From the IMG/VR virus record IMGVR_UViG_3300002137_000068, positions 1 through 32,234 of that record: a stretch of 32,234 nt of DNA; one strand, 5' to 3'. The notes beneath the pieces were generated by a model. It was not told the origin of the DNA. It saw only the letters and a program-made list of their open reading frames with translations, and ran no database searches. The position numbers and the translations under genes were made by a program. Every line of letters begins with the position of its first letter. Within the stretch, counting starts at the first letter, position 1. The DNA is from a virus. Shown here in pieces: positions 3,516 to 30,800 of the stretch.

Positions 3516-3521
3516 TATATC

Positions 3522-3536
3522 TCTAGTACGCTCTAG
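3522..3536. repeat. 15-bp motif, inverted partner of 674-688
   Basis: TCTAGTACGCTCTAG is the exact reverse complement of 674-688. It lies seven bases after the stop of the gp88-like gene. The AGATA/TATCT flanks could extend a weak hairpin. Confidence 0.5.
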
Positions 3537-5065: not shown

Positions 5066-5275
5066 ATGACACAGAACGACACACTACTGAACCACATGCT
5101 GACTGGCCGCAGCATCTCTCCACTGGAGGCCCTCGGTCTCTACGGTGTGTTCCGCTTGGCTGCACGTATGTTTGAACTCAAAGCTATGGGTGTGGACATT
5201 CAGAAGGTAACCAAGGTGGACATCAACGGCAAACAGTACGCTGAATACAGTATCAACCCTAACGAAGAGGAGTGA
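5066..5275 (+). CDS. Small winged-helix (HTH_39-like) DNA-binding protein candidate
   Basis: This 69-residue protein shows the pattern of small phage and prophage winged helix-turn-helix proteins of the HTH_39 type. It has ML-x-x-G-x-x-I-(S/T)-x-x-E-A at the start (residues 11-22), then a helix with YGVFRLAARMFELKAMG, and a wing-like strand VDINGKQYAEYSI. That order (L..G.it..EA..yg..RLaaRi..Lr..G..I....v..nGk.yaeY) is what I rely on. It has a good ribosome site (AAGGAA) and lies in the early block. It is the best visible candidate for the protein binding the palindromic operators, which is inference. Confidence 0.6.
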   Translation: MTQNDTLLNHMLTGRSISPLEALGLYGVFRLAARMFELKAMGVDIQKVTKVDINGKQYAEYSINPNEEE

Positions 5276-5814: not shown

Positions 5815-6030
5815 ATGCGTATGAGAGGATACCTAAGCGAGCCTGATATCGGTGCCTGTTTCGTTGAACCACCAGACGTAGCTATCCCTGCTGGCAAGAC
5901 AAAGGCACAGCATATAGCAGACACAATCAACCGACGAAGGCTAACAGACCACGAAGAAGACGTGGAAGAACAAGAGGATAGCGTGCGACCCGAGGGTGCG
6001 ACAACAGACGGGATTGACTACCCCTTTTGA
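5815..6030 (+). CDS. Small early protein, unknown (71 aa)
   Basis: The start at 5815 follows GAGAGAAACAT. Basic in the middle (KTKAQHIADTINRRRL) and acidic later (DHEEDVEEQEDS). The -35 box of the second promoter-operator (6014-6019) lies inside its last codons, so this gene ends the first early block. No family recognised. Confidence 0.6.
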   Translation: MRMRGYLSEPDIGACFVEPPDVAIPAGKTKAQHIADTINRRRLTDHEEDVEEQEDSVRPEGATTDGIDYPF

Positions 6031-6051
6031 GAGGCTTAAACTCATAGAGTT
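6014..6051 (+). promoter_or_regulatory. Promoter with palindromic operator over the -10 box (copy 2 of 3)
   Basis: TTGACT (6014-6019), exactly 17 bases, then TAAACT (6037-6042), with the palindrome AACTC-ATA-GAGTT (6039-6051) overlapping the -10 box, followed by GGG. Spacing and order match copies 1 and 3. It should drive the block starting with the small membrane proteins and MazG, through the two 96-bp repeats that follow. Confidence 0.7.
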
Positions 6052-6062
6052 GGGTCACTTAG

Positions 6063-6254
6063 ACATAAGTTATACCTTATAAGAAGAAACAAAAGAGATA
6101 CCTAAGGTATAACTTAAGTAGTACATAGATTGTAGAAGCTAAGTTCTACATATGTTAAACATAAGTTATACCTTATAAGAAGAAACAAAAGAGATACCTA
6201 AGGTATAACTTAAGTAGTACATAGATTGTAGAGGCTAAGTTCTACCTATGTTAA
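6063..6254 (+). repeat. Two tandem 96-bp repeats with internal hairpins
   Basis: Copies at 6063-6158 and 6159-6254 differ at only two positions, and the first eight bases of a third copy follow at 6255. Each unit holds a 14-bp perfect inverted repeat (in copy 1, 6066-6079 with 6103-6116; arms TAAGTTATACCTTA) and a second hairpin, GTAGAA/TTCTAC (6132-6149 in copy 1). In copy 2 the change to GTAGAG keeps the stem as a G-U pair in RNA. There is no coding frame. The arm core is shared with the repeats at 1466-1534. Confidence 0.85.
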
Positions 6255-6284
6255 ACATAAGTATGACAATGAAAGGAGAAACGA

Positions 6285-6371
6285 ATGTTGTACATACAAC
6301 GTATAACAATGGCTCTTGCCTTGGTGGTGGGTACCATTGGGTTGTCACTGATAGTGAGCATGTTCTTATGA
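6285..6371 (+). CDS. Tiny membrane protein (28 aa)
   Basis: AAAGGAGA precedes the ATG at 6285. The 28-residue product, MLYIQRITMALALVVGTIGL followed by SLIVSMFL, is essentially one membrane helix with a short basic N-terminus. Its stop overlaps the start of a second small membrane protein as ATGA. A 69-residue frame starting at 6248 covers the same bases but has no ribosome site and begins within the repeat, so I prefer the two short genes. Confidence 0.55.
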   Translation: MLYIQRITMALALVVGTIGLSLIVSMFL

Positions 6372-6457
6372 AGCGTGGTCACACCATAGCTTTACTGGGG
6401 CTAGCCAACCTATGTGTATGGCTTTTCCTTCTCTATCAGATTAACATGTTAGGATAA
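6368..6457 (+). CDS. Tiny membrane protein (29 aa)
   Basis: The ATGA-coupled partner of the preceding gene: MKRGHTIALLGLANLCVWLF and a short tail (LLYQINMLG), one membrane helix after a basic N-terminus. Two coupled single-helix proteins in an early block suggest interference with a host membrane process or a heteromeric complex; the function is unknown. Confidence 0.55.
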   Translation: MKRGHTIALLGLANLCVWLFLLYQINMLG

Positions 6458-7409: not shown

Positions 7410-7604
7410 ATGAGAACCAAGAGACATAAGACACGGTCACGGTCACATTCACGAACAGTGTCAGGGTCACGGTCACATTCACGGACACTGTCAGGGTCAC
7501 ATTCACGGACAGTGTCAGGGTCAGGATTATGGGCATGGTCACGGACAGGGTCAAGATTACGGGCATGGTCAGGGACAGGGTCACAGTCAGGGTCATACAC
7601 TTAG
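7410..7604 (+). CDS. Arg/Ser-rich repeat ORF (64 aa), doubtful gene
   Basis: The ATG at 7410 follows GAGAGGATAG and opens a 64-residue frame rich in RS, SR, SG and TGS ([20 protein letters not shown]...). It lies entirely on the hexamer array at 7435-7596, which keeps all three plus-strand frames nearly open (RS-like, GH/GQ-like and VT-like dipeptide repeats), so openness alone is weak evidence. The ribosome site and start favour this frame. The bases CTAATGAGAACCA at its start recur at the start of the polymerase gene. Confidence 0.4.
7435..7596 (+). repeat. 27 consecutive degenerate hexamers (GGTCAC type)
   Basis: The 162 bases divide exactly into 27 hexamers of the types GGTCAC/GGTCAG, ATTCAC, GGACAG, TGTCAG, GATTAC and GGGCAT, with no slip in phase. 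Higher-order blocks are visible: GGTCAC-ATTCAC-GGACAC/G-TGTCAG recurs in the first half, and GATTAT/C-GGGCAT-GGTCAC/G-GGACAG-GGTCA recurs in the second. It ends 17 bases before the DNA polymerase start. I know of no equivalent at this position in T7-like phages. Confidence 0.85.
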
Positions 7605-16950: not shown

Positions 16951-17141
16951 CAGCAGCACTGTTCGTTATCGTAGTTATCTTGATGACACCAGCAGGACCA
17001 CTGCCAGCAACTGCACCGCTTCTGTTTGAGACAAAGGCTAAGTGTGAGGTTACGAAAGAGGAGGGAGACAAACAGTTGAGACAAGACCCTGAGATCAAGT
17101 TTGTGGCAAGCTTCTGTGTAGCAATTGGAGGTTCCGTATGA
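16947..17141 (+). CDS. Small exported or membrane protein (64 aa)
   Basis: The N-terminus MTAALFVIVVILMTPAGPLP is a hydrophobic segment resembling a signal anchor, followed by a short tail with two cysteines (KAKCEVTKEE, ASFCVAIG), perhaps a disulfide in the periplasm. ATGA overlaps couple it to ThyX and to the next gene. Short proteins of this layout occur in many marine podoviruses. Function unknown. Confidence 0.6.
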   Translation: MTAALFVIVVILMTPAGPLPATAPLLFETKAKCEVTKEEGDKQLRQDPEIKFVASFCVAIGGSV

Positions 17142-17482
17142 GTAAACCATCTGGGCGAAAGCTATGGGCTGAGTTTGGTTGGAACGACGAGTATAAAGGA
17201 AAAGGAACCACTGTGCTAGATGACCCTGAAGAACCACCTGAGCCTGTAGAGTGCATTAGTACAACGCACCATGACCCGGTAGATAAACCGGAACACTACA
17301 GCAATGGCGCTATTGAGTGTATCGTGTACATGAAGGACAACATGACAGCAGAGGCGTTCCAAGGCTACCTAGAGGGGTGTGCTAAGAAGTACATGCACCG
17401 GTTCAAGTACAAGGGTAAAGCTAAGCAGGACCTACAGAAAGCTCAGTGGTACCTTAACAAACTAATAGAAGATATCGATTGA
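17138..17482 (+). CDS. DUF3310 protein
   Basis: The C-terminal 60 residues carry the DUF3310 pattern: DPVDKPEHYSNGAIECIVYM, then EGCAKKYMHRFKYKGKAKQD and LQKAQWYLNKLIE. This small helical domain is common in phages, is annotated as nucleotide-kinase-like in some, and has no proven role. The N-terminal 40 residues are divergent and acidic. It is the last gene of the rightward operon, 12 bases before the convergent hairpin. Confidence 0.8.
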   Translation: MSKPSGRKLWAEFGWNDEYKGKGTTVLDDPEEPPEPVECISTTHHDPVDKPEHYSNGAIECIVYMKDNMTAEAFQGYLEGCAKKYMHRFKYKGKAKQDLQKAQWYLNKLIEDID

Positions 17483-17494
17483 CAAAGATGTGAG

Positions 17495-17528
17495 GACCGG
17501 TTGACTAAGCTACTGGAGCCAACCGGTC
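17495..17528. terminator. Bidirectional terminator-like hairpin at the convergence point
   Basis: GACCGGTTG (17495-17503) pairs perfectly with CAACCGGTC (17520-17528), with a 16-base loop. It lies between the end of the rightward genes and the stop of the last leftward gene, and touches that stop. No strong T-run follows on either strand, so it is terminator-like rather than a canonical intrinsic terminator. Confidence 0.65.
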
Positions 17529-17833
17529 TACTGCTTATCTCGTTTTACTAATTGATCTACGTCTGCCCTTAACCGTTCAACCTCACGAGTACGTCGTTCC
17601 ATTGTATCAGGTGAGGACATAGATGCTAGGATACCAAGCCTATGTTGGGTAGTGTCCACCGTATTTTCCAGACGGTCTATTCGTTGGTCTAACTTACGTA
17701 GTCTGTTCTCGTAATCCTGAGCTTGGTCAGCGAGTAGTTTTATTTCCCGTTTTGCTACAGCCGCTGCTGCTGCTATAGAAAATAACATCCCACCTAGGGT
17801 TAGGATTAAACTTGTATCTATTGTGCCACCCAT
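17528..17833 (-). CDS. Membrane-anchored coiled-coil protein (101 aa), possible lysis or holin-like
   Basis: An N-terminal membrane helix (about residues 8-26, SLILTLGGMLFSIAAAAAV) is followed by a basic KREIK and then a long coiled coil (RLRKLDQRIDRLENTVDTTQHRL and further heptads). Positive charge after the helix suggests an outside N-terminus and inside C-terminus, unlike an i-spanin, where the coil lies in the periplasm. It is the last leftward gene, with GAGGAGCAAGGGG before the ATG. A holin, anchor or regulator of lysis are possible; none is established. Confidence 0.6.
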   Translation of the reverse strand: MGGTIDTSLILTLGGMLFSIAAAAAVAKREIKLLADQAQDYENRLRKLDQRIDRLENTVDTTQHRLGILASMSSPDTMERRTREVERLRADVDQLVKRDKQ

Positions 17834-17851
17834 CAGTCGCCCCTTGCTCCT

Positions 17852-17980
17852 CTAAGAAATAGACTTGTCTTGCTCAAGATAGGCCTTAGCCCACTTGATA
17901 TCGTTTGTGTACGCACTCTTGCAGTGGTCCTTAGGTTCTTTAGGTATTTCACTGTTGTCTATCCTTGAGAGACTACACAT
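17852..17980 (-). CDS. Possible small protein (42 aa), doubtful
   Basis: This is the only sizeable frame in the 184-base gap between two late genes. It reads MCSLSRIDNSEIPKEPKDHC, KSAYTNDIKWAKAYLEQDKS and IS. The ribosome site is poor, and the frame stays open upstream of the ATG, back to a TGA near the end of the 230-residue gene. Hydrophilic, without a signal peptide. I see no other feature in the gap. Confidence 0.25.
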   Translation of the reverse strand: MCSLSRIDNSEIPKEPKDHCKSAYTNDIKWAKAYLEQDKSIS

Positions 17981-18017
17981 ATCAGTTGGCTCGCAGAGGG
18001 CGTGGTGGCGGCTGTGT

Positions 18018-18710
18018 TCAGAAAAAGGATACAGCAGTCATACACTTCTGACCGTTAGCATTGAGTGACCGTATGGTTCTTGTGGGCATGCCTGGGATAC
18101 CAGCATTGGCTAGGCTGAACACCGCAAAGGTAGAGCTACCATTCTCTAGTGTATCGATACGATCCCTGGTGAAACCAGTAAGTAGGGCGACACTGGTACT
18201 TATGCTGCCACAAGATACACCTGCAATACATGGGCCTGATAGGCTCGTAACGATAGGCTGACTCGTCTGTGTAGCACTATTAGCTGTGAAATCAACAGCG
18301 GTATCCAGTACCTGTGGAAAGTCATTACCGTACACAGCATAGATGTTTAGTGACATACGTTTCCACGCTTGGGTGCCAACAGTTACGCTCACACTCCCAG
18401 TTGTAGCACTCTGGTCACCATCAACGATCCATATAGAACTCCTGCCTTCAGTAGCGTACTGGTCATCGTGAGAGATAACCTCTGTACCAGCTGTGCCGTC
18501 GATGCTAAGTGCTGTGACAGTGGATACGCTAGGGTGGATTGGCTCCCACTGCATGACAGCAAGGAGACGCCTGTTAGTCTGAGCAGAACCAAGGGACGTA
18601 CTGGGCCAAGTGTAGGTTGTTGCATCATCAGTCCGAAGCCGAGACCAAACCCAAGTAGCAGTAACTGGTGCTCTGCCTGCGAATATACTAGGGAACCCAG
18701 GTAAGATCAT
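18018..18710 (-). CDS. Tail-associated beta-rich protein, unknown
   Basis: This 230-residue protein is rich in Ser, Thr, Gly and Val and has no hydrophobic segment. Its layout (TYTWPSTSLGSAQTNRRLLA, VSVTVGTQAWKRMSLNIYA, ending GQKCMTAVSFF) is like the C-terminal part of the 648-residue fibre protein, which also ends with an alternating strand (DGWYAVTAAFS). I infer a jelly-roll or beta-sandwich domain of a receptor-binding or tail decoration protein. Its start overlaps the stop of the 324-residue gene (ATGA), so it may be a partner of that fibre. Confidence 0.55.
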   Translation of the reverse strand: MILPGFPSIFAGRAPVTATWVWSRLRTDDATTYTWPSTSLGSAQTNRRLLAVMQWEPIHPSVSTVTALSIDGTAGTEVISHDDQYATEGRSSIWIVDGDQSATTGSVSVTVGTQAWKRMSLNIYAVYGNDFPQVLDTAVDFTANSATQTSQPIVTSLSGPCIAGVSCGSISTSVALLTGFTRDRIDTLENGSSTFAVFSLANAGIPGMPTRTIRSLNANGQKCMTAVSFF

Positions 18711-19681
18711 GAGCAGTTAATCAGTGCTGACACTACGAAGATAGACGCAGAGACACAGTAGATGTTCAGCAGGCTATACTCGTTAGCTCCTGTTGAGATC
18801 GTAGGCAGGATACCGTAGGCACCTTTGTATGCTGTATCAAAGGCTAGTGTGTTGGTACCACCAGCGTCCTGAATGACACGAATGACACGAGACTGCCCAG
18901 GTACACCGTTAGTAGGGTCGGCTAGTGTACGGTTATCTGTTAGTGTAACCTCGAAGGCATAACCTGAGGTGAAGTCAAAGGCAATGTTGGTAGCATCAGT
19001 AAGTGTGACAATAGCAGTAGCTGCATGAGCCGCAGCAGGCGTGATGTACTTACCAGATGCACCTGTACGTACCTCAGCTGTACTAGCCAGCACAGTGGTA
19101 TCAACATAAGCTTTGATAGACTGCTGTGATGCTACGGCGGTTGCACTGTTGGTACCCATAGCATCTTCGTCAAGCAGTGTGTACCCAGACGCATCAACGT
19201 AGGCTTTAATAGACTGTTGTGAAGCTACAGCGGTAGCATCGTCTGACGCCATGTCGTCTTCATCAAGGAAACTCTGCGGTAGAGACTTACCGGAGAACAA
19301 TTGCCACTTAACAGCAGCTAGATCAGTAGCAAAGGTGCCACTGGTGTGTGCTACTACACAGATGTACACAGAGCCACCGTCTTCAGCCAGGGTATCCACA
19401 GCATAGGCTGTTGCAGTGACCCAAGGACCAGACCATGAAGGTTGCGACGTATAGTCTGTGACAGTAACACCAGCTACCTTTAGTACAGCTATGTTAGCTG
19501 TTGCTACATTTAGTAGATCATTGGAGTTAAGGTCGAAGTCAGCTGTCATTACGTTTGGTACGCTGCCGTCAAGACTAACTGTATTGTCTAAAGCATCATT
19601 GATTGCATTGAGGTTAGCATTGAGCATTGTAGTGCTCTGGTACCCTGAGGCTACCGTAGTGAGTGTAGGTTTCTTAGCCAT
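18707..19681 (-). CDS. Tail fibre protein (324 aa), shares N-terminus with the larger fibre
   Basis: The first 60 residues match 37 of 60 with the N-terminus of the 595-residue fibre (SLDGS-x-PN and ADFD-x-NSND blocks), a likely common virion-attachment domain. Residues about 140-200 contain a duplicated block, LDED-x-M...ATAVASQQSIKAYVD, often found in phage tail proteins. The rest is beta-rich (TDNRTLADPTNGVPGQSRVI). Its ATG directly follows the preceding gene's TAG. Likely a structural fibre or spike component. Confidence 0.7.
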   Translation of the reverse strand: MAKKPTLTTVASGYQSTTMLNANLNAINDALDNTVSLDGSVPNVMTADFDLNSNDLLNVATANIAVLKVAGVTVTDYTSQPSWSGPWVTATAYAVDTLAEDGGSVYICVVAHTSGTFATDLAAVKWQLFSGKSLPQSFLDEDDMASDDATAVASQQSIKAYVDASGYTLLDEDAMGTNSATAVASQQSIKAYVDTTVLASTAEVRTGASGKYITPAAAHAATAIVTLTDATNIAFDFTSGYAFEVTLTDNRTLADPTNGVPGQSRVIRVIQDAGGTNTLAFDTAYKGAYGILPTISTGANEYSLLNIYCVSASIFVVSALINCS

Positions 19682-20224
19682 CTATACGATCCAATACTTG
19701 TCGTCTGCGAAGTCGTCTGGTGGTGGGTCCGCTGCTTCTAGTGTGTCTGAAACAGACCGGATACGCTGAATTTCCGTCCAAACCTCGTCCATTCCAGACA
19801 CCTCAAGTGCCTCCGCAGTAGTAAGGTTAGCCTCACCTTTTCGTAGCAAAGTAAGAGCTCTTGCTAGCATGTTGGATTGCTTCCACTCAGGAGCAATAGC
19901 GATAATACGACGTTTAGCTTCCGCTTTTACTTTACGAATCTGATCTTCTCTATATTGAATCTTTTCTTCTTCAGTTTTATCTACTATGCTCCACTTAATA
20001 AACCATTGATTGTTTACTATTTGAGGTTGCTGTCTAACTATACGTTGAGTAGCTTCGTTATAAACCGGCGAAGGTTCTTCGATAACGGGATAAACTTGAT
20101 AAGAGGCTTTAATCTCGTCAGATATCGTAGACGGAAAACTCACATTAGCATTGTCACGTCTAAATTGCCTGTCGCTATATGGAAAGATACGATTTAGCTC
20201 ATTTATTACTTTTATGTATTTCAT
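19682..20224 (-). CDS. Probable tail fibre assembly (chaperone) protein
   Basis: I take the ATG at 20224 (MKYIKVINELNRIFPYSDRQ) because AAGGAG is perfectly placed; an upstream frame opening is not needed. The 180-residue protein has a central EEEKIQYREDQIRKVKAEAK-type helix. It ends with the 'W..IQ.IR..SD.LEAA' pattern (DEVWTEIQRIRSVSDTLEAA) that I associate with phage fibre-assembly or cap proteins. Like the 648-residue gene it is AT-rich in its 3' neighbour half, so they may have been acquired together. Lies between two fibre genes. Confidence 0.6.
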   Translation of the reverse strand: MKYIKVINELNRIFPYSDRQFRRDNANVSFPSTISDEIKASYQVYPVIEEPSPVYNEATQRIVRQQPQIVNNQWFIKWSIVDKTEEEKIQYREDQIRKVKAEAKRRIIAIAPEWKQSNMLARALTLLRKGEANLTTAEALEVSGMDEVWTEIQRIRSVSDTLEAADPPPDDFADDKYWIV

Positions 20225-20234
20225 TTTTTTCTCC

Positions 20235-22180
20235 TTATGAAAATGCTGCTGTAACAGCATACCAGCCATCTGAAGATGAAGATGTTATTGCTCCCGGATT
20301 TTCAGAAGTGAGAGATTCTTCTTTATAGCATATACAAGTTCCAGTATTAAAACTTGAGGACCCAGCAGTCCCAAGTAGTTCGTACCCCGAAGGCGCAGTA
20401 AATGTAGAATTTTTATCATCATCTAAATGTCCAGTGATAATCCACAAATCAGCAGTAGCTGTAACAGAAGGAGGGTCTAAACTACTACTACCACCATTAG
20501 AATATGCTGAATTTTCAAATGTAGTATATGTAGGTTTAAATATAGCGGCAATAGCAGTTAATCCACCTGATAAACCAGAAGCGCTGCTTAAATACGGATT
20601 AGAGTCTCCTGCTTGAACAATTCTATATCCTACATAGGTTCCGGGACTGCTTTGGTTTGTTAAATTTTGAATCGCTGTAAAGGGCATCCCCTCCCAAGAC
20701 CAACTTGTTGTAGAATTATCCACACTAAATGCAATAACAACTAAATCGCCTTCATCGGCTATACTCAATACATCTAAAACATTATTAGAGTCCCAATCAG
20801 GGCCTTCATCGACCGCTTTAGTGACAAACCCTTTGACTAGTCCTGTTTCTGTTGTTTTAGTTAAGGTATAAGAACTTGTAGTGTCAGAATACACCGGAGT
20901 TGTTTCAGTTGGTGAGTCAGATGCGGCTGAGATAGATGAAGAACCCCAAGTCATACCTCCTGTAGCCGATACCCAACGAGAAGAATTGCCGTAGGTAAGA
21001 TTACCCCACATCCCTGTTAAAGACCCATCATCCGGCAGCCGAGCGATATACCCACCATATGGTGAAGATGTATCTGCTATCGAAAAGCACCATCCGCCTA
21101 GTGGGTGAGCGTGAAGAGAACTATAACTCTTCTTGTTAATAGCACGCTGCCAAGATACAGAACCGTCTGACGGGTCTAACCCCACCATAGCAGTAGTAGC
21201 AGGAATCTCAGTGCCGTCATCCCAACATACAACTAAAACTCCGCCAGTAGTGATACACATATCTAGAGTATTACCAAATTGTTCAGCCGGGTAGGTTCCC
21301 GTCGAATTAAAGCGTTTATGCCACTGTACTGTGCCTGAAGAGTTAAACTTTAAGACGTGCAGACGTTTTGTAAATCCAGAACCTGAAGTTCCGGTTGCGA
21401 TAGATATATAGACATTATCAGAACTATCTACAATTATGTCTTTTATCAGTCCACCATAATCTTCTCCGTTTTGAAGAGTAGAGATAGTGTTCGTAGTTTT
21501 TATACTCCACTGAACAGTCCCAGACGAGTTTAACTTTACAAGGTATGGTCTATACTCATACGTTCCTGCTTCTTTAGCATGACCTCCAGCATAAATATAC
21601 CCACTAGAATCAACAGTAGTAGCCCTAAAAAGTGAAGCATTGGTGCCGTCATTAAACTTATAGAGCCAACCAAGTGAAAGAGAAGAGTCATATTTTGCCA
21701 CTCCTGCTGTACCGACAGTTCCGTCATTATAGTATAGGGCTTGATATATATTATCAGAAGAATCAACAGAAATTTTGTTGGGTGAGTCAAAAGCAGAAGA
21801 GGAAATGCCAGCCTGAGCTAAAACTGCTTGTGTGCTTGCTGATGTTTTAATGAGAGCAATATCACGGCTTGCTCCCAGCCCTAAATCATAATATGTGCTA
21901 ATATAAACGTTGTCTGATGAATCTACACCAATATACTTGAAACCGACGGCATCGTATGTTGAATAGGCATACTTCTTTTGCCAGTTTTCAAGGCCATCTT
22001 TATCGAGGGATACTACAGCAACGGCTTGTGCGTCTTCAAAGGCGGCAATAACATCATTTGAAGAGTTTACTAAAACATCTCCCATACGTCTAACACCAGA
22101 CACCTCTACTACCCAGTAGTCATCTCCAGCAGCAGCAGCACCACCAGCACCACCAGCACCCATTAGTTTCTTAGTAAGCA

Positions 22181-22181
<1 letters not shown>
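20235..22181 (-). CDS. Large tail fibre/spike with propeller-like (SBBP) repeats, AT-rich, likely acquired
   Basis: Start at 22181 (MLTKKLMGAGGAGGAAAAGD), with TAGGAGATGG upstream; it overlaps the stop of the preceding gene as TAATG. The 648-residue protein repeats VDSSDNVYIS-like motifs (at least five, for example VDSSGYIYAGG) as in SBBP beta-propeller repeats, and ends in a C-terminal strand-rich domain (GWYAVTAAFS). Base composition is unlike its neighbours: 32 percent G+C in bases 20401-20460 against 58 percent in 22621-22680. A receptor-binding protein swapped in from another source is the likely explanation. Confidence 0.75.
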
Positions 22182-23968
<1,787 letters not shown>

Positions 23969-23970
23969 TG

Positions 23971-24372
23971 TTACTCCTTAGTCCTCTTAAAGAGTCCGCT
24001 GAACCCGCTGAATATCTGTGTTGGTGTAGGTAGCATCCATCCGATTAGACCGAAGGCTCCTAGCAGTATGATCAGCAGTGTATCTGTCTCATTGACAGTA
24101 ACTGACCCTATGGTGCCTGACTGTACCTTGTTGGTCTCACCTTGGGTAACCTTAACAGAGCCAGTGTTGTCACCTAGCTTGACATCACCAGCATCTGTTC
24201 GTTTACCAACTGTGATCGATTGTTCATTCTCTGCTCCTATTTGTGCATTGACATCAACAGCAGTACCCGAATTGGAAGAGCCACCCAGGGAGCCTAAAGC
24301 TTTGGTAGCAATGTCCAACGGTGTGCAGCTTACTGCAATGACAAACAGGAGCAGAGAGATGAACCTAGACAT
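23971..24372 (-). CDS. Probable unimolecular spanin (u-spanin)
   Basis: It would fuse the inner and outer membranes in the last step of lysis. The 133-residue protein has an N-terminal signal with a lipobox-like end ([10 protein letters not shown], lipidated Cys16 predicted), a beta-rich periplasmic part (residues about 35-97, [20 protein letters not shown]), and a single C-terminal membrane helix (about 98-115, [18 protein letters not shown]) with a basic tail (FKRTKE). The length and layout match the T1 gp11 type u-spanin. It is coupled to the preceding gene by an eight-base overlap. Function is inference from topology. Confidence 0.65.
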
Positions 24373-24520
24373 CGTCGATAATCTTCTTCACTTTAGATGC
24401 AGCTTGGTCAACCCTGAGGTTAACCCTATCCTTCAGTTCTGCTACATCGGCTTTACGACGAAACACATAGGCAATAAGCCTACCGATAGCTCGTTGTAAC
24501 GCCATTAGGTACTTCACCAA
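24365..24520 (-). CDS. Small amphipathic protein (about 51 aa), start uncertain
   Basis: Reading MVKYLMALQRAIGRLIAYVF then RRKADVAELKDRVNLRVDQA and [15 protein letters not shown] lies eight bases before a TTG at 24520; GTG (24517) or ATG (24505) are alternatives. A frame opening earlier (24610) would begin inside the promoter-operator element, so I reject it. The first 20 residues could be an amphipathic or membrane helix. It lies just before the spanin gene and may take part in lysis; that is inference. Confidence 0.5.
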   Translation of the reverse strand: MVKYLMALQRAIGRLIAYVFRRKADVAELKDRVNLRVDQAASKVKKIIDDV

Positions 24521-24585
24521 CGTCTTAACTCCTAGGTATATTCTACAGTAACAAAGGTTGGACAGATGTTTAACAACAACCAACC

Positions 24586-24623
24586 AACTCTTAGAGTTTA
24601 GTCGGTACACAAAGGTGTGTCAA
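24586..24623 (-). promoter_or_regulatory. Promoter with palindromic operator over the -10 box (copy 3 of 3)
   Basis: Reading leftward: TTGACA (24623-24618), 17 bases, TAAACT (24600-24595), with the perfect palindrome AACTCTAAGAGTT (24598-24586) followed by GGTTGGTTG. Past the operator, the sequence continues to match 1341-1400 on plus for about 50 bases (TAAACAT-x-TGT..CC..ACCTTTG and a later TAGA..ATATAC). It sits in the 123-base gap upstream of the lysis and fibre genes and would give them a promoter of their own. Confidence 0.7.
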
Positions 24624-24643
24624 TGCGGTAGATTGTCGCTACC

Positions 24644-24940
24644 TTAGTCACCCTTGCGGATAGCCTTGGTAACAGTGGAGATATCGTCCCATGACACCTT
24701 ACCAAACACAAAGAATAGCACACCGATACAGGTGACGCCTGCTCTGAACAACCATCGTTGGAACCTTAGGGTGTTCTGGATGTCCTTCACAGCAAACAGC
24801 AGCTGGGTGTTGATATCTTTCATAGCTCTAGTGTCTTCTTGAGTGTTCTGCAAGATAACCTCACGCCTAGCTCCTTGTGTCTCCAAGTCGATGAGACGCT
24901 GCTGTATCTGTTGGTCTACCCATTCTGGAAGGTCAGACAT
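24644..24940 (-). CDS. Coiled-coil plus membrane helix protein (98 aa), holin-like candidate
   Basis: The first 60 residues are charged helix (MSDLPEWVDQQIQQRLIDLE and onward). A membrane segment follows at about 64-85 (WLFRAGVTCIGVLFFVFGKVSW), then a short basic tail. This is the layout of XhlA-type haemolysin or small membrane-anchored lysis proteins. It is the first gene after the large ejection protein and precedes the spanin by two genes. Holin activity is unproven. Confidence 0.5.
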   Translation of the reverse strand: MSDLPEWVDQQIQQRLIDLETQGARREVILQNTQEDTRAMKDINTQLLFAVKDIQNTLRFQRWLFRAGVTCIGVLFFVFGKVSWDDISTVTKAIRKGD

Positions 24941-24942
24941 AT

Positions 24943-27882
24943 CTACTCTCCCAGAACAAAAGGTGTGGGCGTTGGTTGCCTATAGGGACCAGAACCTACC
25001 GTAGAAGACGCTGCGGGCTGCTCTGGTTGCTGTTGTCCCTCTTCGCTGTACGCATTTAGGATAGCACTCATGATAGCTCTCTGACGGGCTCCTAGGGCTC
25101 TTATAGTATCAAGTGTGTTGGCACCTTGGAGGTGATCAATGACTTCCTTGACTTCCTTAGGTGTTGCATCTGGAACAGTTTGTGTTACCGTGTCCACGAT
25201 TTGACTCTCAGGAAGCTCATCGTCTGGGATCATACCATCAAGAGCAATACCTGCTTGCTTCACAGTGACACTGGCTTTGTTGCCATCACCGTAGTACGAT
25301 TCGCCTTTCTTGAGAGACACCTGTTTCCCGTCACGGTTGACAACCATATCAGTAGGAATAGGGAACGATGCCCACTCTTTAGCTAGAGCTAGCAAGGCTG
25401 CGTCTCTGTCGTCAGACTTACCAGAGATGTACCTACCGATATCCTTACGTTTCTCGTTGATGAGGTAACCGAATGCTTTGTTCTGCATCGCTTCATCAAA
25501 CGTATCGGTGCTCTTTACCTCAGGGTGTGCCTTAAGGAAGCCCACCATCGTGCTAGGTATGATCTGGAACTTACCAGCTGCAAAGATACGGTTAGTATCG
25601 TTAGGGTCTTTGATCGACTGGAACTGCGTGAGTTCTCCTACCGTAAGGCCAGAGACAGGAATGATAGACTCTACACCGTTACGGGTGACAGACCTACTAG
25701 CGTTGATGTCAGCGCCTACGATACCTTTGCCTTTGAGAGTTCCTCTGTTGACTGCATCGTAGCTTCCTTGGGACTCAGCTTGACCAATACGGTCATCTAA
25801 GGTACCGGCACCTGCTGGACTAATGATCTGCCTACCAACAAAACCAGCAGCATCACCAAGAGCAGAACCTACCTTGCCTACAGCACGCTCACCTAAGGGA
25901 ACTCCATCAGTCTCAGGGAAGCCACCGAGGCCGAGGATACCACCAGCACTGGGAGCAGTTGTTTCAACAACAGGACGCTCGCGAGGAACAGGAGCAGCAG
26001 CAGGTGCAACCTCTTGTGTGAACTCATCGCCAGCCTCCACTGCGGTACTATAGGCATTCTCAATCAGGTCAGCCTCTGCTTGCATACGCCCACGTGCAGC
26101 ATTGATGGCAACCAAGGAGTCCATCTGCTCTTTTAGTTCACCACCTTCTTCCATAAACACACGCATATCCATAGAGTTCATAAACTCTGATACGCCGCGT
26201 GAGAACTTAGGAGCATCAGATCGACCTTGTTTTGAGCCTCTGTAAGCTTTGGTAAATGCGTAGAGATCACCGTCGTACGGTTCCAGTGCAGCCCTCATCT
26301 CATCTTCAATGAACGCACGAAACTCACCCGAGGCAGGTAGGTTGTCAAAGGCGTTAGCCCAGTTTAACCGCACCTTACCGTCTTGACCTAGCTTCGCAAA
26401 GTCACCGAACTTCTTGTTAGCATTCTGGTAGGACTTAGTAGACATCTGGTCTAACGCTTCTGAGTGCTGTCGCGCCATTGCCCACGCTGTTTGTGGGTCA
26501 GTCTTGCCAACTTCACGTATAGTACCAATCAAACCTGTGTTGTACGCATCGTTGATGTCAGCTGCAGCGAAGGGAACAGTCGAGTTGTACACACTAGCCG
26601 CCATCTTCTGGCTAATATTAGCTACCGTTTGGGTCTCCGTACCAGCTGCTTTAGGGGTCAAGGCACGGAAGTACTTACTGATTCCGTTCATATTCTCCAC
26701 GTGCTTCTTTGGATCACCTTTGTAGGCATCAAGAGCCTCTTGAGATATAGTGCCGTTAGGTTTACCTTTGTTACCACTATTTAAGCCGGGCGCACCAGAG
26801 GTAAGGTCACTCTTGTTGCCCTCATTAATCTTGTAGAGGGGTTCATTGGTGGTTTGTAAAGCTTTGAAGGCAGACGCATAGTCCGCACCTGTCAAGCCAA
26901 ACTCCTTAAAGTCTTTGGTGTTTAGGATGACGTGGGTGACAATTGCAGAAAGATCAGGGTTCTTTACTACCGACTGAATCAACGCACTAGCAGCCGCGGC
27001 TTTCAACGTCTCTCCTTTGTTAATTAGTCCGCCGTACACCTCACTGATACCTTCAAGCTTGGCTGTCACATTAGACCATTGTGTGTCGTCGAGCCCAGGT
27101 GGACGTTGTGCTAGTATGTTTCCTTTGAACTGCTTAAACCGTACGCTTGAATTTTTGATTGAAGTAGGATCAAGTGTCTGACCAGCCTGATCAGCAAGCA
27201 TAGCTGCGCCAGCCTCAGCGTTCCAGAATTGGTTTATGACTTGATTAAAGGCTGATAGACCACCGCCTTCAATGTTCCAATTAGCTTTGTTGGTTGCAGC
27301 CTGAGCCTCAGACTTACCGTTAGCTGCAGCGATAGTACTCTTAGCTGCCATGATGCCCATCGTTTCCACCAGGGCTGCTGAATGCCTGACTTCGCCGGGT
27401 GTACCAGGAGGATGGGTGTTGTAAGTGTTAGCTACCGCGTTAGCGTAGTCTTCTCCCTCTGTAATCTTCATAATCGCATGAGTTTCTTCTGACAGACCGA
27501 ACTGGTCAGCATTCCTGCCAGTTACCCGTTCAACCATATACTTAGCTTCTTCTGAAGTAGGGTTACCACCCGCACGAACAAAGTCCAGTGCTATCTGGTT
27601 CTCCATAGCGGTAGCTTGACCATTGAAACCCTGTGCACGTAGCTGTGCTGCCTTCTCTGTGCCTGTTTGGAACGCATTGAGGCTGTTAAGTTCATCTTCG
27701 TCTTTGATTTGCTGGTAGGTTGGAGCTTTTGGCTTAAAGCTATCCAAGGCTTTGTCAGCTACCTTCAGAGCACCAGACAATGCATCGCCAATACCGCTGA
27801 AGACAGACGGCTCAGCAGCAGGTGCCGTTGGAGCTTGTGTGTAGCCGATATCTGAGGTTAGTTTAGGGGCGAAGGGTTGCAT
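24943..27882 (-). CDS. Virion ejection protein with lysozyme-like domain (979 aa)
   Basis: A large internal virion protein. Near residue 703 it carries a muramidase-like domain (about 695-860): GQAESQGSYDAVNRG with the candidate catalytic Glu703, then AAGKFQIIPSTMVGFLK and NKAFGYLINEKRKD. That pattern resembles the lysozymes used by phages to open the cell wall during DNA entry. The remainder is helical, without membrane segments I can define. It follows the 1449-residue protein by one base. By place and size it corresponds to part of the T7 gp15/gp16 core set, but the exact equivalence is inferred. Confidence 0.8.
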   Translation of the reverse strand: MQPFAPKLTSDIGYTQAPTAPAAEPSVFSGIGDALSGALKVADKALDSFKPKAPTYQQIKDEDELNSLNAFQTGTEKAAQLRAQGFNGQATAMENQIALDFVRAGGNPTSEEAKYMVERVTGRNADQFGLSEETHAIMKITEGEDYANAVANTYNTHPPGTPGEVRHSAALVETMGIMAAKSTIAAANGKSEAQAATNKANWNIEGGGLSAFNQVINQFWNAEAGAAMLADQAGQTLDPTSIKNSSVRFKQFKGNILAQRPPGLDDTQWSNVTAKLEGISEVYGGLINKGETLKAAAASALIQSVVKNPDLSAIVTHVILNTKDFKEFGLTGADYASAFKALQTTNEPLYKINEGNKSDLTSGAPGLNSGNKGKPNGTISQEALDAYKGDPKKHVENMNGISKYFRALTPKAAGTETQTVANISQKMAASVYNSTVPFAAADINDAYNTGLIGTIREVGKTDPQTAWAMARQHSEALDQMSTKSYQNANKKFGDFAKLGQDGKVRLNWANAFDNLPASGEFRAFIEDEMRAALEPYDGDLYAFTKAYRGSKQGRSDAPKFSRGVSEFMNSMDMRVFMEEGGELKEQMDSLVAINAARGRMQAEADLIENAYSTAVEAGDEFTQEVAPAAAPVPRERPVVETTAPSAGGILGLGGFPETDGVPLGERAVGKVGSALGDAAGFVGRQIISPAGAGTLDDRIGQAESQGSYDAVNRGTLKGKGIVGADINASRSVTRNGVESIIPVSGLTVGELTQFQSIKDPNDTNRIFAAGKFQIIPSTMVGFLKAHPEVKSTDTFDEAMQNKAFGYLINEKRKDIGRYISGKSDDRDAALLALAKEWASFPIPTDMVVNRDGKQVSLKKGESYYGDGNKASVTVKQAGIALDGMIPDDELPESQIVDTVTQTVPDATPKEVKEVIDHLQGANTLDTIRALGARQRAIMSAILNAYSEEGQQQPEQPAASSTVGSGPYRQPTPTPFVLGE

Positions 27883-27883
27883 A

Positions 27884-30800
27884 TTACTCTGTTCCTTGAT
27901 TCTCTACACGTTTGCCTGCAGCCATTAAGTGGCGTTCGAAGTACCACTGTGCTAGCGGGGTTGAGTTACGTACTCTCATCTGCGTACGGATACCGTGGAT
28001 ATCTAAAGGAGAGAACCCAGAGATATCAATTCTTGCGTTGACTTCATTGAGCAATTGAATACCGTCTGCTTCTTTACCTTCTCGTATCAAATCTATACCA
28101 TGTTGGAAGGACTTTTGCAAGTCTTTTGTGAACTCTTTCACATCTTTTGTTTCTCTCCAGACGTGAGACTTGCTATCGTAGTAGTCTGCTACTGAGTAGT
28201 TTGTGATACCTAAGCCTTGCAACACACCATCAATGGCAGTGAAAGGCAAAGGTATTGACGCACCAGTTTTTGATCGGTACACATTGTGGTTGATGATACC
28301 TCGTGCCTTCACTATATTGTCAATACCAGTAGGAGCCCGAAGTACCCTCTCTATGTCTTCCCAAGCAGAAGCTGTGTGACCATTGAAGATGTTACCTATT
28401 GCTTCGTAAGCAGCCACAACACCGGCACCAACGATCTCAACAGAAGGACCACCTAATGCTGTGAGTGTGTTCTCCTCAGTGACCTTGCGGTAGATATCCA
28501 TGAAGGTACCTAGTGGAGCTAGGCGTGTACCCATAGCTGTCTGAACGTCGTTACCTGAGACACCGCTAAAGAACGCAGAGAGGACACCGTCGTAGAAGCC
28601 GTACTTGACAGCTGCAACACCAGCACCATTAGGGTCCATGTCAAACTTCTCACTGATCCAATCAGCTGCACCTGCTGCGAAGACGCCAGCTGTACCACCT
28701 TGGCCTACCAAGATCAGACCCAAGCGGATACGTTCAGCCTTAGACAGGTCACGCCCGATAACAACAGCTTCCATCGCTCTGAAACTATAGGCAGTCCACT
28801 GTGAAGGCAACCGCCACACACCTTGCTGCAGTGCTGCTTTAGATGCAGTACCCATGTTGAACGTAAGGTCTTGCTCTCTATTGGCAATCCAAGCACGAGC
28901 GTTGTCTTCCATTGCGCTGACATTAGGGAGCCTTTTCTTGTGCTCCAAGAATGCAGTAGTGATAGCAGTTAGACGTGACAGACGTTCACCCTCTGTAAAA
29001 GGAGCAGTACCTGCCTTCAGTACCTTCTTGCCTACAGATGATGCAGCGTACAGTCCTTTACGCATTTCTCTAGGTATGTGTGACTTACCGCCCCATCCTT
29101 TGAATGACCACCCAGGCCCTGTTGCCTTCTCCATTGCGTCATTACCAACGTCGTACCGACCAGATACCATTATGTACTCAAAGAGTTCCTTTGCATCTTT
29201 CTCAGACACACCTAGCACTCTACCTATACGACGAACAGCCTCAGGTGTACCATTGTGTAGAGCAAGACGCAGAGCAGGTGCACCGTATGAAGCCTTCAGC
29301 CCGGCTTTAGGAGACAAAGCTATAATGGAGGACACCTGTGATGCCTGCATGACAAACTGACCGATGTTGAAGAAACCAAAGGCAGACTGAAAGCCCATGT
29401 TAAGCAGCCCACTGACAATAGAAACCTTTGGTACCTTTAGGCCTGTAGTATCAAAGACGAACTCACGCATCTCTTGACCAAAGTGTTCCATTCCACGTGT
29501 CATAGGGTCCTTAAGACCCATGCGTCGTCTGGCAATGTTACCAACTTGGATAAGACTACGTTCCTCAGCTGTGTGGTTACTCCTTGCTGTAAGCTTATTG
29601 AACATATCATCGAAGGCTGCACGATTTGCATGTGCTGTCGTTGTGATACCTAGTGCTTTAGCTTTAGCAACCCAAGACGCTGTGATGCTCTCTGTGTAGT
29701 TAGAATGAGAGTACGCACTGAACTCATTAGCAAGCTGGTCCACCATAGCCTTAACAGGACCGTCGTTCAGGGTCTCAAGGCCAGTACCATAGTCCATCAG
29801 TACGCGGTCTGCACGGCGTCCCTGTTGTGCTTGATAGAAGAGATCGTTTGACGCACCGCCCCATACCTCGTGGTCACCATCAACTGTGTTACCTCCACGG
29901 GCTTTGTAGGATACAGGATTAGCGACCATAGCACTATCTTCACCAGAGCCTGAGACTAAGTTCCAACCTTTGCGCTCTGCAAAAGCCTGCAGTGAAGCTG
30001 TATCGTACACAAGAGTAGGAGCCCAAGAGTTGTTACGAGCAATGACATCATCTAGTTCATCCACAAGTTGTCTTAGTGGCCTTCCAAGAACAATAAGCTC
30101 ATCTTGGATATTCTTGATCTGTAACTTAGCTATCTTAGCATCCTTTTCAGAGAATGCAGTCATAACAGCTTTACCATTGCCTTCACCCAGCGTGATAAAG
30201 AAGTTAGCATCAGGATTAAGCCGTTGTCCACCTGAGTTGTACCCAAGTACATGGTGGTACTCTATATTACTGACAGACTTAGGACGGATAAAGTAGTCAT
30301 CCATCTCAGAACGCCAAATAGCTGTACCATACGGTATTTCGTCACCTGCTCTAACAAAAGCTTGAGCAGCTACGTCGTAAATGTCTTTATCAGCTGGTGC
30401 TGAGGTTACCTGCCTAGCTAGAACACCACCTATATTGGTCTGAACAGCCTTGTAGCCAGCTTTGATGTACCTTTTGGATATCTCCTTAGCTTTCATCAGG
30501 TAAGCTGTGTCGTTAATCGTCTTAGCAGCGTAGAAAGAAGCATGGTCTGCCTCTGTAGCCCGCTTTGTTCTACCAGATGCTTCGTAGAACTCCTCAGCAA
30601 ACTCTAAAGGAGAGTAACCATCACGAATAAAGGCGTCTTCACCATCACGAAGCTTGGTGTACACCTTCCCAATAATCTCTTGACTCTCTAAGTTAGTCTT
30701 TTCCAGTATCCTGAGAGGTTCTTTAGCTATACTCTTGAGCACAGCGAAGCCAGCCTCACCCATGTTGGCTAAATTGTTGTGGTGCTTACTGTCTAGTGAC

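Follow-up and report, generated by a model that had tools for sequence, protein, structure and literature searches.

A promoter-linked 96-bp tandem repeat with dyad-symmetric sites in a Cobavirinae-like phage genome, a possible DNA operator array

Why does a 96-bp sequence stand twice in a row directly behind a putative early promoter of a marine phage, and does it act as RNA, as DNA or not at all? We addressed this question in a virus record of 32,234 bases, called the window here, which represents a genome fragment from a Cobavirinae-like podophage. The placement comes from its Cobavirinae-type genes for DNA polymerase, primase/helicase, exonuclease, B12-dependent ribonucleotide reductase, ThyX and MazG, and the structural arm is oriented opposite to these replication and metabolic genes, as expected of a member of the group. 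The closest isolates are CRP-5, CRP-4 and ICBM2, with 42-46% identity in the polymerase and ~63% in the reductase. The Cobavirus group has been described as having no phage RNA polymerase (PMC6775973, PMC6918029), and we found no gene for one among the proteins scanned, a subset of the open reading frames of a record that is itself a fragment.

The repeat and the promoter in front of it

Tandem Repeats Finder (TRF) places the array at 6059-6262 with a period of 96, 2.1 copies, a 97% match and no indels, which confirms the two nearly identical 96-bp repeats of a preliminary description of this DNA and carries the array on to 6262. The two differences between copies given there are correct in the register 6063-6254; in the register 6059-6154/6155-6250 there are three (6062 G/A, 6137 A/G and 6150 A/C). 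The features of this region, and those it is compared with, are as follows.

1303-1362, + strand: putative promoter P1 (at 1316); alignment with P2 and P3
5066-5275, + strand: small winged-helix protein, HTH_39 (PF14090); Pfam E 5e-12
6001-6052, + strand: putative promoter P2, TTGACT (6014-6019), 17 bp, TAAACT (6037-6042), with the palindrome AACTCATAGAGTT (6039-6051); alignment with P1 and P3
6059-6154, + strand: 96-bp repeat, copy 1; TRF and pairwise comparison
6155-6250, + strand: 96-bp repeat, copy 2, with three differences; TRF and pairwise comparison
6251-6262, + strand: third, partial copy, TTAAACATAAGT; TRF and sequence
6285-6371, + strand: first likely gene past the leader, 28 aa, hydrophobic, with AAAGGAG upstream; sequence and translation
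24585-24645, - strand: putative promoter P3 (at 24623), facing tail genes; alignment with P1 and P2, also present in contig L085

The repeat had been described as lying right after a second promoter copy, and we indeed found three copies of one long putative promoter, recognised by resemblance. They share the exact blocks GACAA (upstream), ATTGAC, TAAACTC and AGAGTTGG, as well as the palindrome AACTCNNAGAGTT, which overlaps the -10, and TARACATNNGTNNNACCTT downstream, and the pattern matches only these three places in the window. P1 and P2 face early genes. To judge from its hexamers, P2 is probably a sigma70-type promoter; the repeat begins ~17 bp past its -10, and the leader that follows precedes the DNA polymerase and primase/helicase genes. 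The main cobavirus papers that we searched nowhere use the word promoter (the wider literature was not exhaustively checked), and leader arrays of this kind appear to be undescribed in them.

A protein-coding role of the repeat was rejected, since it has no frame: no open reading frame of at least 60 aa spans it on either strand, as had been claimed, and the listed frame at 6248-6457 starts in the last bases of the repeat. An intrinsic terminator or attenuator was likewise discarded, there being no G+C-rich stem followed by a T run within the repeat, and a minus-strand promoter in each unit (TTAACA-18-TACAAT) is at chance level.

Stems, folding and symmetric sites

Our stem search found the perfect 14-bp inverted repeat that had been reported for each copy at 6066-6079/6103-6116, with a loop of 23, and again at +96. 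It is the longest short-range stem of the window, whereas in five randomised sequences of the same length no stem exceeded 11 bp and those of 11 bp averaged 0.4 per sequence, so that the stem is beyond chance. The array might nevertheless be a recent neutral tandem duplication, made by slippage between TTARACATAAGT repeats, with an incidental hairpin. Its 97% identity without indels, the short direct repeats that bound the copies and its absence from all relatives found, none of which covers the region, would fit such an origin, but a stem so far beyond chance, the recurrence of a related site at P1 and the analogous arrays in relatives do not. We consider this account quite unlikely for the element as a whole; for the 96-bp duplication alone, a recent and neutral origin may still be true.

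Folding of the transcript region 6050-6300, proposed earlier as a check, gave z = -5.9, with 0/200 shuffles as good. Two hairpins per copy had been described: the 14-bp stem is strong, and the second, GTAGAR-GCTAAG-TTCTAC, is present and weak by itself (z = -2.5 in copy 1 and -0.7 in copy 2). It also holds that one substitution keeps this second stem through a G-U pair, A6137 to G6233 converting A-U to G-U, while A6150 to C6246 loses one pair of the small hairpin and makes another possible. When the 96-bp unit is given three random mutations, 11-20% of the products fold no worse than the other copy does, and the lone A-to-G change is thus too weak an argument to count as evidence of selection on RNA.

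The stem arms have a further property: taken alone, either of the 14-nt arms reads as a near-palindrome (TAAGKTATAMCTTA), symmetric at 6/7 positions, which occurs in ~0.3% of 14-mers in shuffles. Scanning for this dyad gave the following sites in the leaders and upstream of P1, listed with the small hairpin.

6066-6079 (again 6162-6175), + strand: site 1, left stem arm, TAAGTTATACCTTA; stem search, motif scan, self-symmetry 6/7
6103-6116 (again 6199-6212), + strand: site 2, right stem arm, TAAGGTATAACTTA; stem search, motif scan, self-symmetry 6/7
6132-6149 (copy 2: 6228-6245, GTAGAG), + strand: small hairpin GTAGAA-GCTAAG-TTCTAC; folding
6140-6153 (copy 2: 6236-6249, TAAGTTCTACCTAT), + strand: degenerate site 3, TAAGTTCTACATAT; PWM 9.8 and 14.0 bits
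1241-1254, + strand: single further site upstream of P1, AAGATTATACCTAA; motif scan and PWM
1465-1534, + strand: five 14-bp direct iterons of a related site (AGGTTATACCTATA) in the P1 leader; repeat search and motif scan
24532-24545, - strand: weak site in the P3 leader, TAGAATATACCTAG; PWM, 42/1000 shuffles as good

Within a unit the sites are spaced by 37 and 37 bp, followed by 22 bp to the next copy, and the degenerate site 3 falls in the small hairpin. The core GTTATACC has all 7/7 of its window occurrences in the P1 and P2 control regions, where 0.3 are expected in 32 kb, two of the seven being owed to the duplication alone and two more being inverted arms. Twofold-symmetric sites thus recur at promoters of one phage. 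Motif scans beat 100/100 shuffles with a dyad motif defined after inspection of the sequence, the PWM tests were modest (14/1000 shuffles as good for P2, 42/1000 for P3), and a set-based test of k-mers shared by the P1 and P2 leaders did not reach significance.

These results can be set against an RNA leader element, in which the nascent P2 transcript, with two hairpins per unit, would act in cis in antitermination or antipausing, in the manner of HK022 put, or in RNase processing or stability of the early operon. Such an element would suit the P2 leader's folding, which is very strong (z -5.4 to -5.9), the location of the arrays within the presumed transcribed leader and the ability of the small hairpin to absorb both of its substitutions, as well as the good folding of leaders in other phages described below. 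Within this phage, however, the leaders of P1 and P3 fold no better than shuffles (z -1.1 and +0.2), the antisense strand of the P2 leader folds as well as the sense strand (z -5.06 vs -5.39), the arms are individually palindromic, the fold survives random triple mutation at the rate given above, and the repeat has no Rfam match at the gathering score. The P1 leader has no comparable stem pair despite carrying the related site as iterons, and since it shares the site without unusual folding, the element common to the leaders is the sequence dyad and not the hairpin. We therefore regard a role as RNA as possible but doubtful.

No other 200 bp of the window is as rich in AT as the P2 leader (72%), which raises the question of an origin of replication. 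The primary origin of T7 lies in the early region, where AT-rich DNA comes after a promoter, and T7 uses promoters of its own RNA polymerase. Here too, P2 is followed by AT-rich, presumably easily melted repeats upstream of the DNA polymerase and primase/helicase genes, and the P1 leader has iterons, but the window has host-type promoters and its sites are dyads, present after P1 and weakly after P3, with no site of the initiator type; AT-richness alone is not specific. An origin of this type seems improbable to us.

Arrays in related phages

Relatives were sought by scans with the hairpin in exact and in shorter form, with the MazG gene, the 5547 gene and the DNA polymerase, and with the promoter and the iteron pair. 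The only close relatives found were L001-L004 (window ~7.4-19.7 kb) and L085 (17.0-29.9 kb), none of which reaches 6059, so that no record among them covers the repeat region. Over 13 kb (16963-29946) the window matches L085, an IMG/VR contig that belongs to a different record, at 99.85% identity. Matches to the shorter hairpin were set aside, those in L087 and L088 being coding-like sequence and L086 showing no relation to the window. A rule of perfect long stems across the group was also discarded, as there were few among 80 related contigs.

More distant isolates have arrays of their own, and these we observed directly. In CRP-4, TTGACA-17-TACCCT is followed by arrays of the ACTTAAAGGATA type both in the divergent region (near 39780) and in the early gap (near 1650), so that the arrays come directly after two copies of one promoter. 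The two regions share 22 10-mers in CRP-4 vs 0.4 in shuffles, and 10 each in CRP-9 (vs 0.7) and CRP-13 (vs 1.1). The dyad TACT-N3-AGTA lies within these regions in 6/7 (CRP-9) and 6/6 (CRP-13) occurrences in the stretches read, and within the 20-kb early stretches 3/3 occurrences fall within 126 bp in CRP-9 and 4/4 within 187 bp in CRP-13. The early gap of ICBM2 contains one exact copy of the window site, TAGGTTATACCTAT, a result matched by 0/1000 shuffles. CRP-5 showed no sharing of sites between the regions compared, and the plan of phage-specific arrays is therefore not universal. The arrays of CRP-4, CRP-9 and CRP-13 resemble that of the window in that both the divergent region and the early-operon gap carry sites particular to the phage, but these three have other site sequences, ICBM2 being the exception, and the 96-bp tandem copy is absent from all four.

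Leaders in these phages fold well, with z from -3.3 to -4.4 for CRP-4, the CRP-9 gap, the CRP-13 gap and ICBM2, and the gaps contain perfect stems of 14 bp in CRP-9 and 12 bp in CRP-13; the CRP-4 gap also folds well. Strong stems in the CRP gaps are expected wherever near-palindromic sites cluster. The ICBM2 leader offers more to a role as RNA, as its stem includes G-U pairs and the sense strand alone folds strongly (z -3.3 vs -0.8 antisense). This leader (40364-40455 of L091) follows a perfect TTGACA-17-TATAAT, has several G-U pairs in its stem and shares GTTGGTTG with the start region of window P1 and P3. On the minus strand at 2643-2672 of ICBM2, a perfect TTGACA-16-TATAAT promoter points against the early operon and adjoins a single AGGTTATACCTA site.

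Siovirus genomes have a different site, GTTACCT, which is enriched in the control regions of ICBM1, ICBM3 and P12053L, with 6 in those of ICBM1 vs 0.7 expected. The window's HTH_39 protein is a homologue of ICBM2 gp05 (32% identity), and the Siovirus phages, which have a closer homologue of the ICBM2 protein, lack the site of the window and ICBM2. As a binder of the site, HTH_39 is suggestive for the window and ICBM2 but inconsistent with the Siovirus phages and their GTTACCT sites.

Clusters of the word AGGTTATACCT were seen in apparently unrelated virus contigs (L098:600-760, L099:3940-4140 and L101:8830-8910), in seemingly non-coding DNA.

The operator reading and known systems

The reading that we favour, at even odds in our own estimate, is that the P2 repeat is a DNA operator array for a putative regulator. 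Several short sites of dyad symmetry would stand directly behind a sigma70 (host-type) promoter, with related direct iterons in the P1 leader. The dyad sites would most likely be bound by a dimeric DNA-binding protein, phage- or host-encoded, that would block, slow or switch transcription from P1 and P2 and so determine when the early genes are expressed, the group being reported to have no RNA polymerase of its own. The 14-bp hairpin would then be a by-product of two near-palindromic sites in one leader, and the 96-bp tandem copy would double the number of sites. We infer the binding of a protein, its effect and its identity from the arrangement of the sites, and the HTH_39 gene at 5066-5275 is a candidate for the regulator only.

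DNA is favoured over RNA because individually palindromic arms are needless for a long hairpin and needed for a dimeric DNA-binding site, because behind P1 the site comes back in the form of direct iterons and the leader there does not fold unusually, because the antisense strand of the P2 leader folds equally well, and because the sites vary between phages yet recur within one phage. Against an operator array, the sites are located past the start and do not cover the promoter hexamers, the pairing of the 14-bp arms is perfect, beyond the need of degenerate operators, the k-mer and PWM results are as modest as given above for a motif defined after inspection, and the Siovirus phages with the closer HTH_39 homologue lack the site. 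Selection on RNA or DNA structure had been suggested in the preliminary description; a promoter-linked leader unit with symmetric sites stands, while its RNA-specific argument is too weak.

The array has partial counterparts in known systems. The stoperators of Cluster A mycobacteriophages (L5, Bxb1) are repressor sites, part of which lie at promoters while others affect elongation, and are asymmetric, dispersed, mostly away from promoters and in one orientation (PMC6550527). Like these, the window has a set of short sites that are phage-specific within a related group, but its sites are near-palindromic dyads clustered in promoter-linked control regions. The HK022 putL and putR RNAs are ~70 nt long with two stem-loops, downstream of early promoters, in two related copies per genome (PMC9378689). 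The P2 unit likewise has two stem-loops (14-bp and 6-7-bp) directly downstream of an early promoter, but the P1 leader lacks this fold (z -1.1) and thus provides no second structured element, no sequence relation was shown, and what the window's leaders share is a short dyad. Membership in the stoperator, put RNA or T7-origin class cannot be claimed.

A broader proposal, which we think unlikely as it stands, is that cobavirus-type phages share a fast-diverging scheme, each with its own dyad arrays in the leaders of duplicated host-type promoters and a cognate phage protein. If so, the pair of site and protein would set the timing and decide whether a regulator acts on a co-infecting relative. 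Gene timing in this widespread marine group, reported to be without RNA polymerase, is unaddressed in the papers searched, and phage-specific dyad arrays behind duplicated promoters offer a concrete, testable entry to it.

We also noted several other repeats in the window. Tandem repeats occur in the long non-coding region after P1 (1815-1875 and 2189-2242, with TGATATACACA and CATATTGTCACAC units) and, with periods of 12-54 bp (GGTCACGGTCACATTCACGGACAG...), at 7430-7603 immediately upstream of the DNA polymerase gene. An inverted repeat based on CTAGAG/GACCCCTAGAG lies between two minus-strand genes at 587-683, with a partially matching copy, CTAGTACGCTCTAG, at 3517-3536. On the minus strand, 9-base repeats at 23557-23758 lie inside the open reading frame 22181-23968, which matches tail fibre and collagen-like families.
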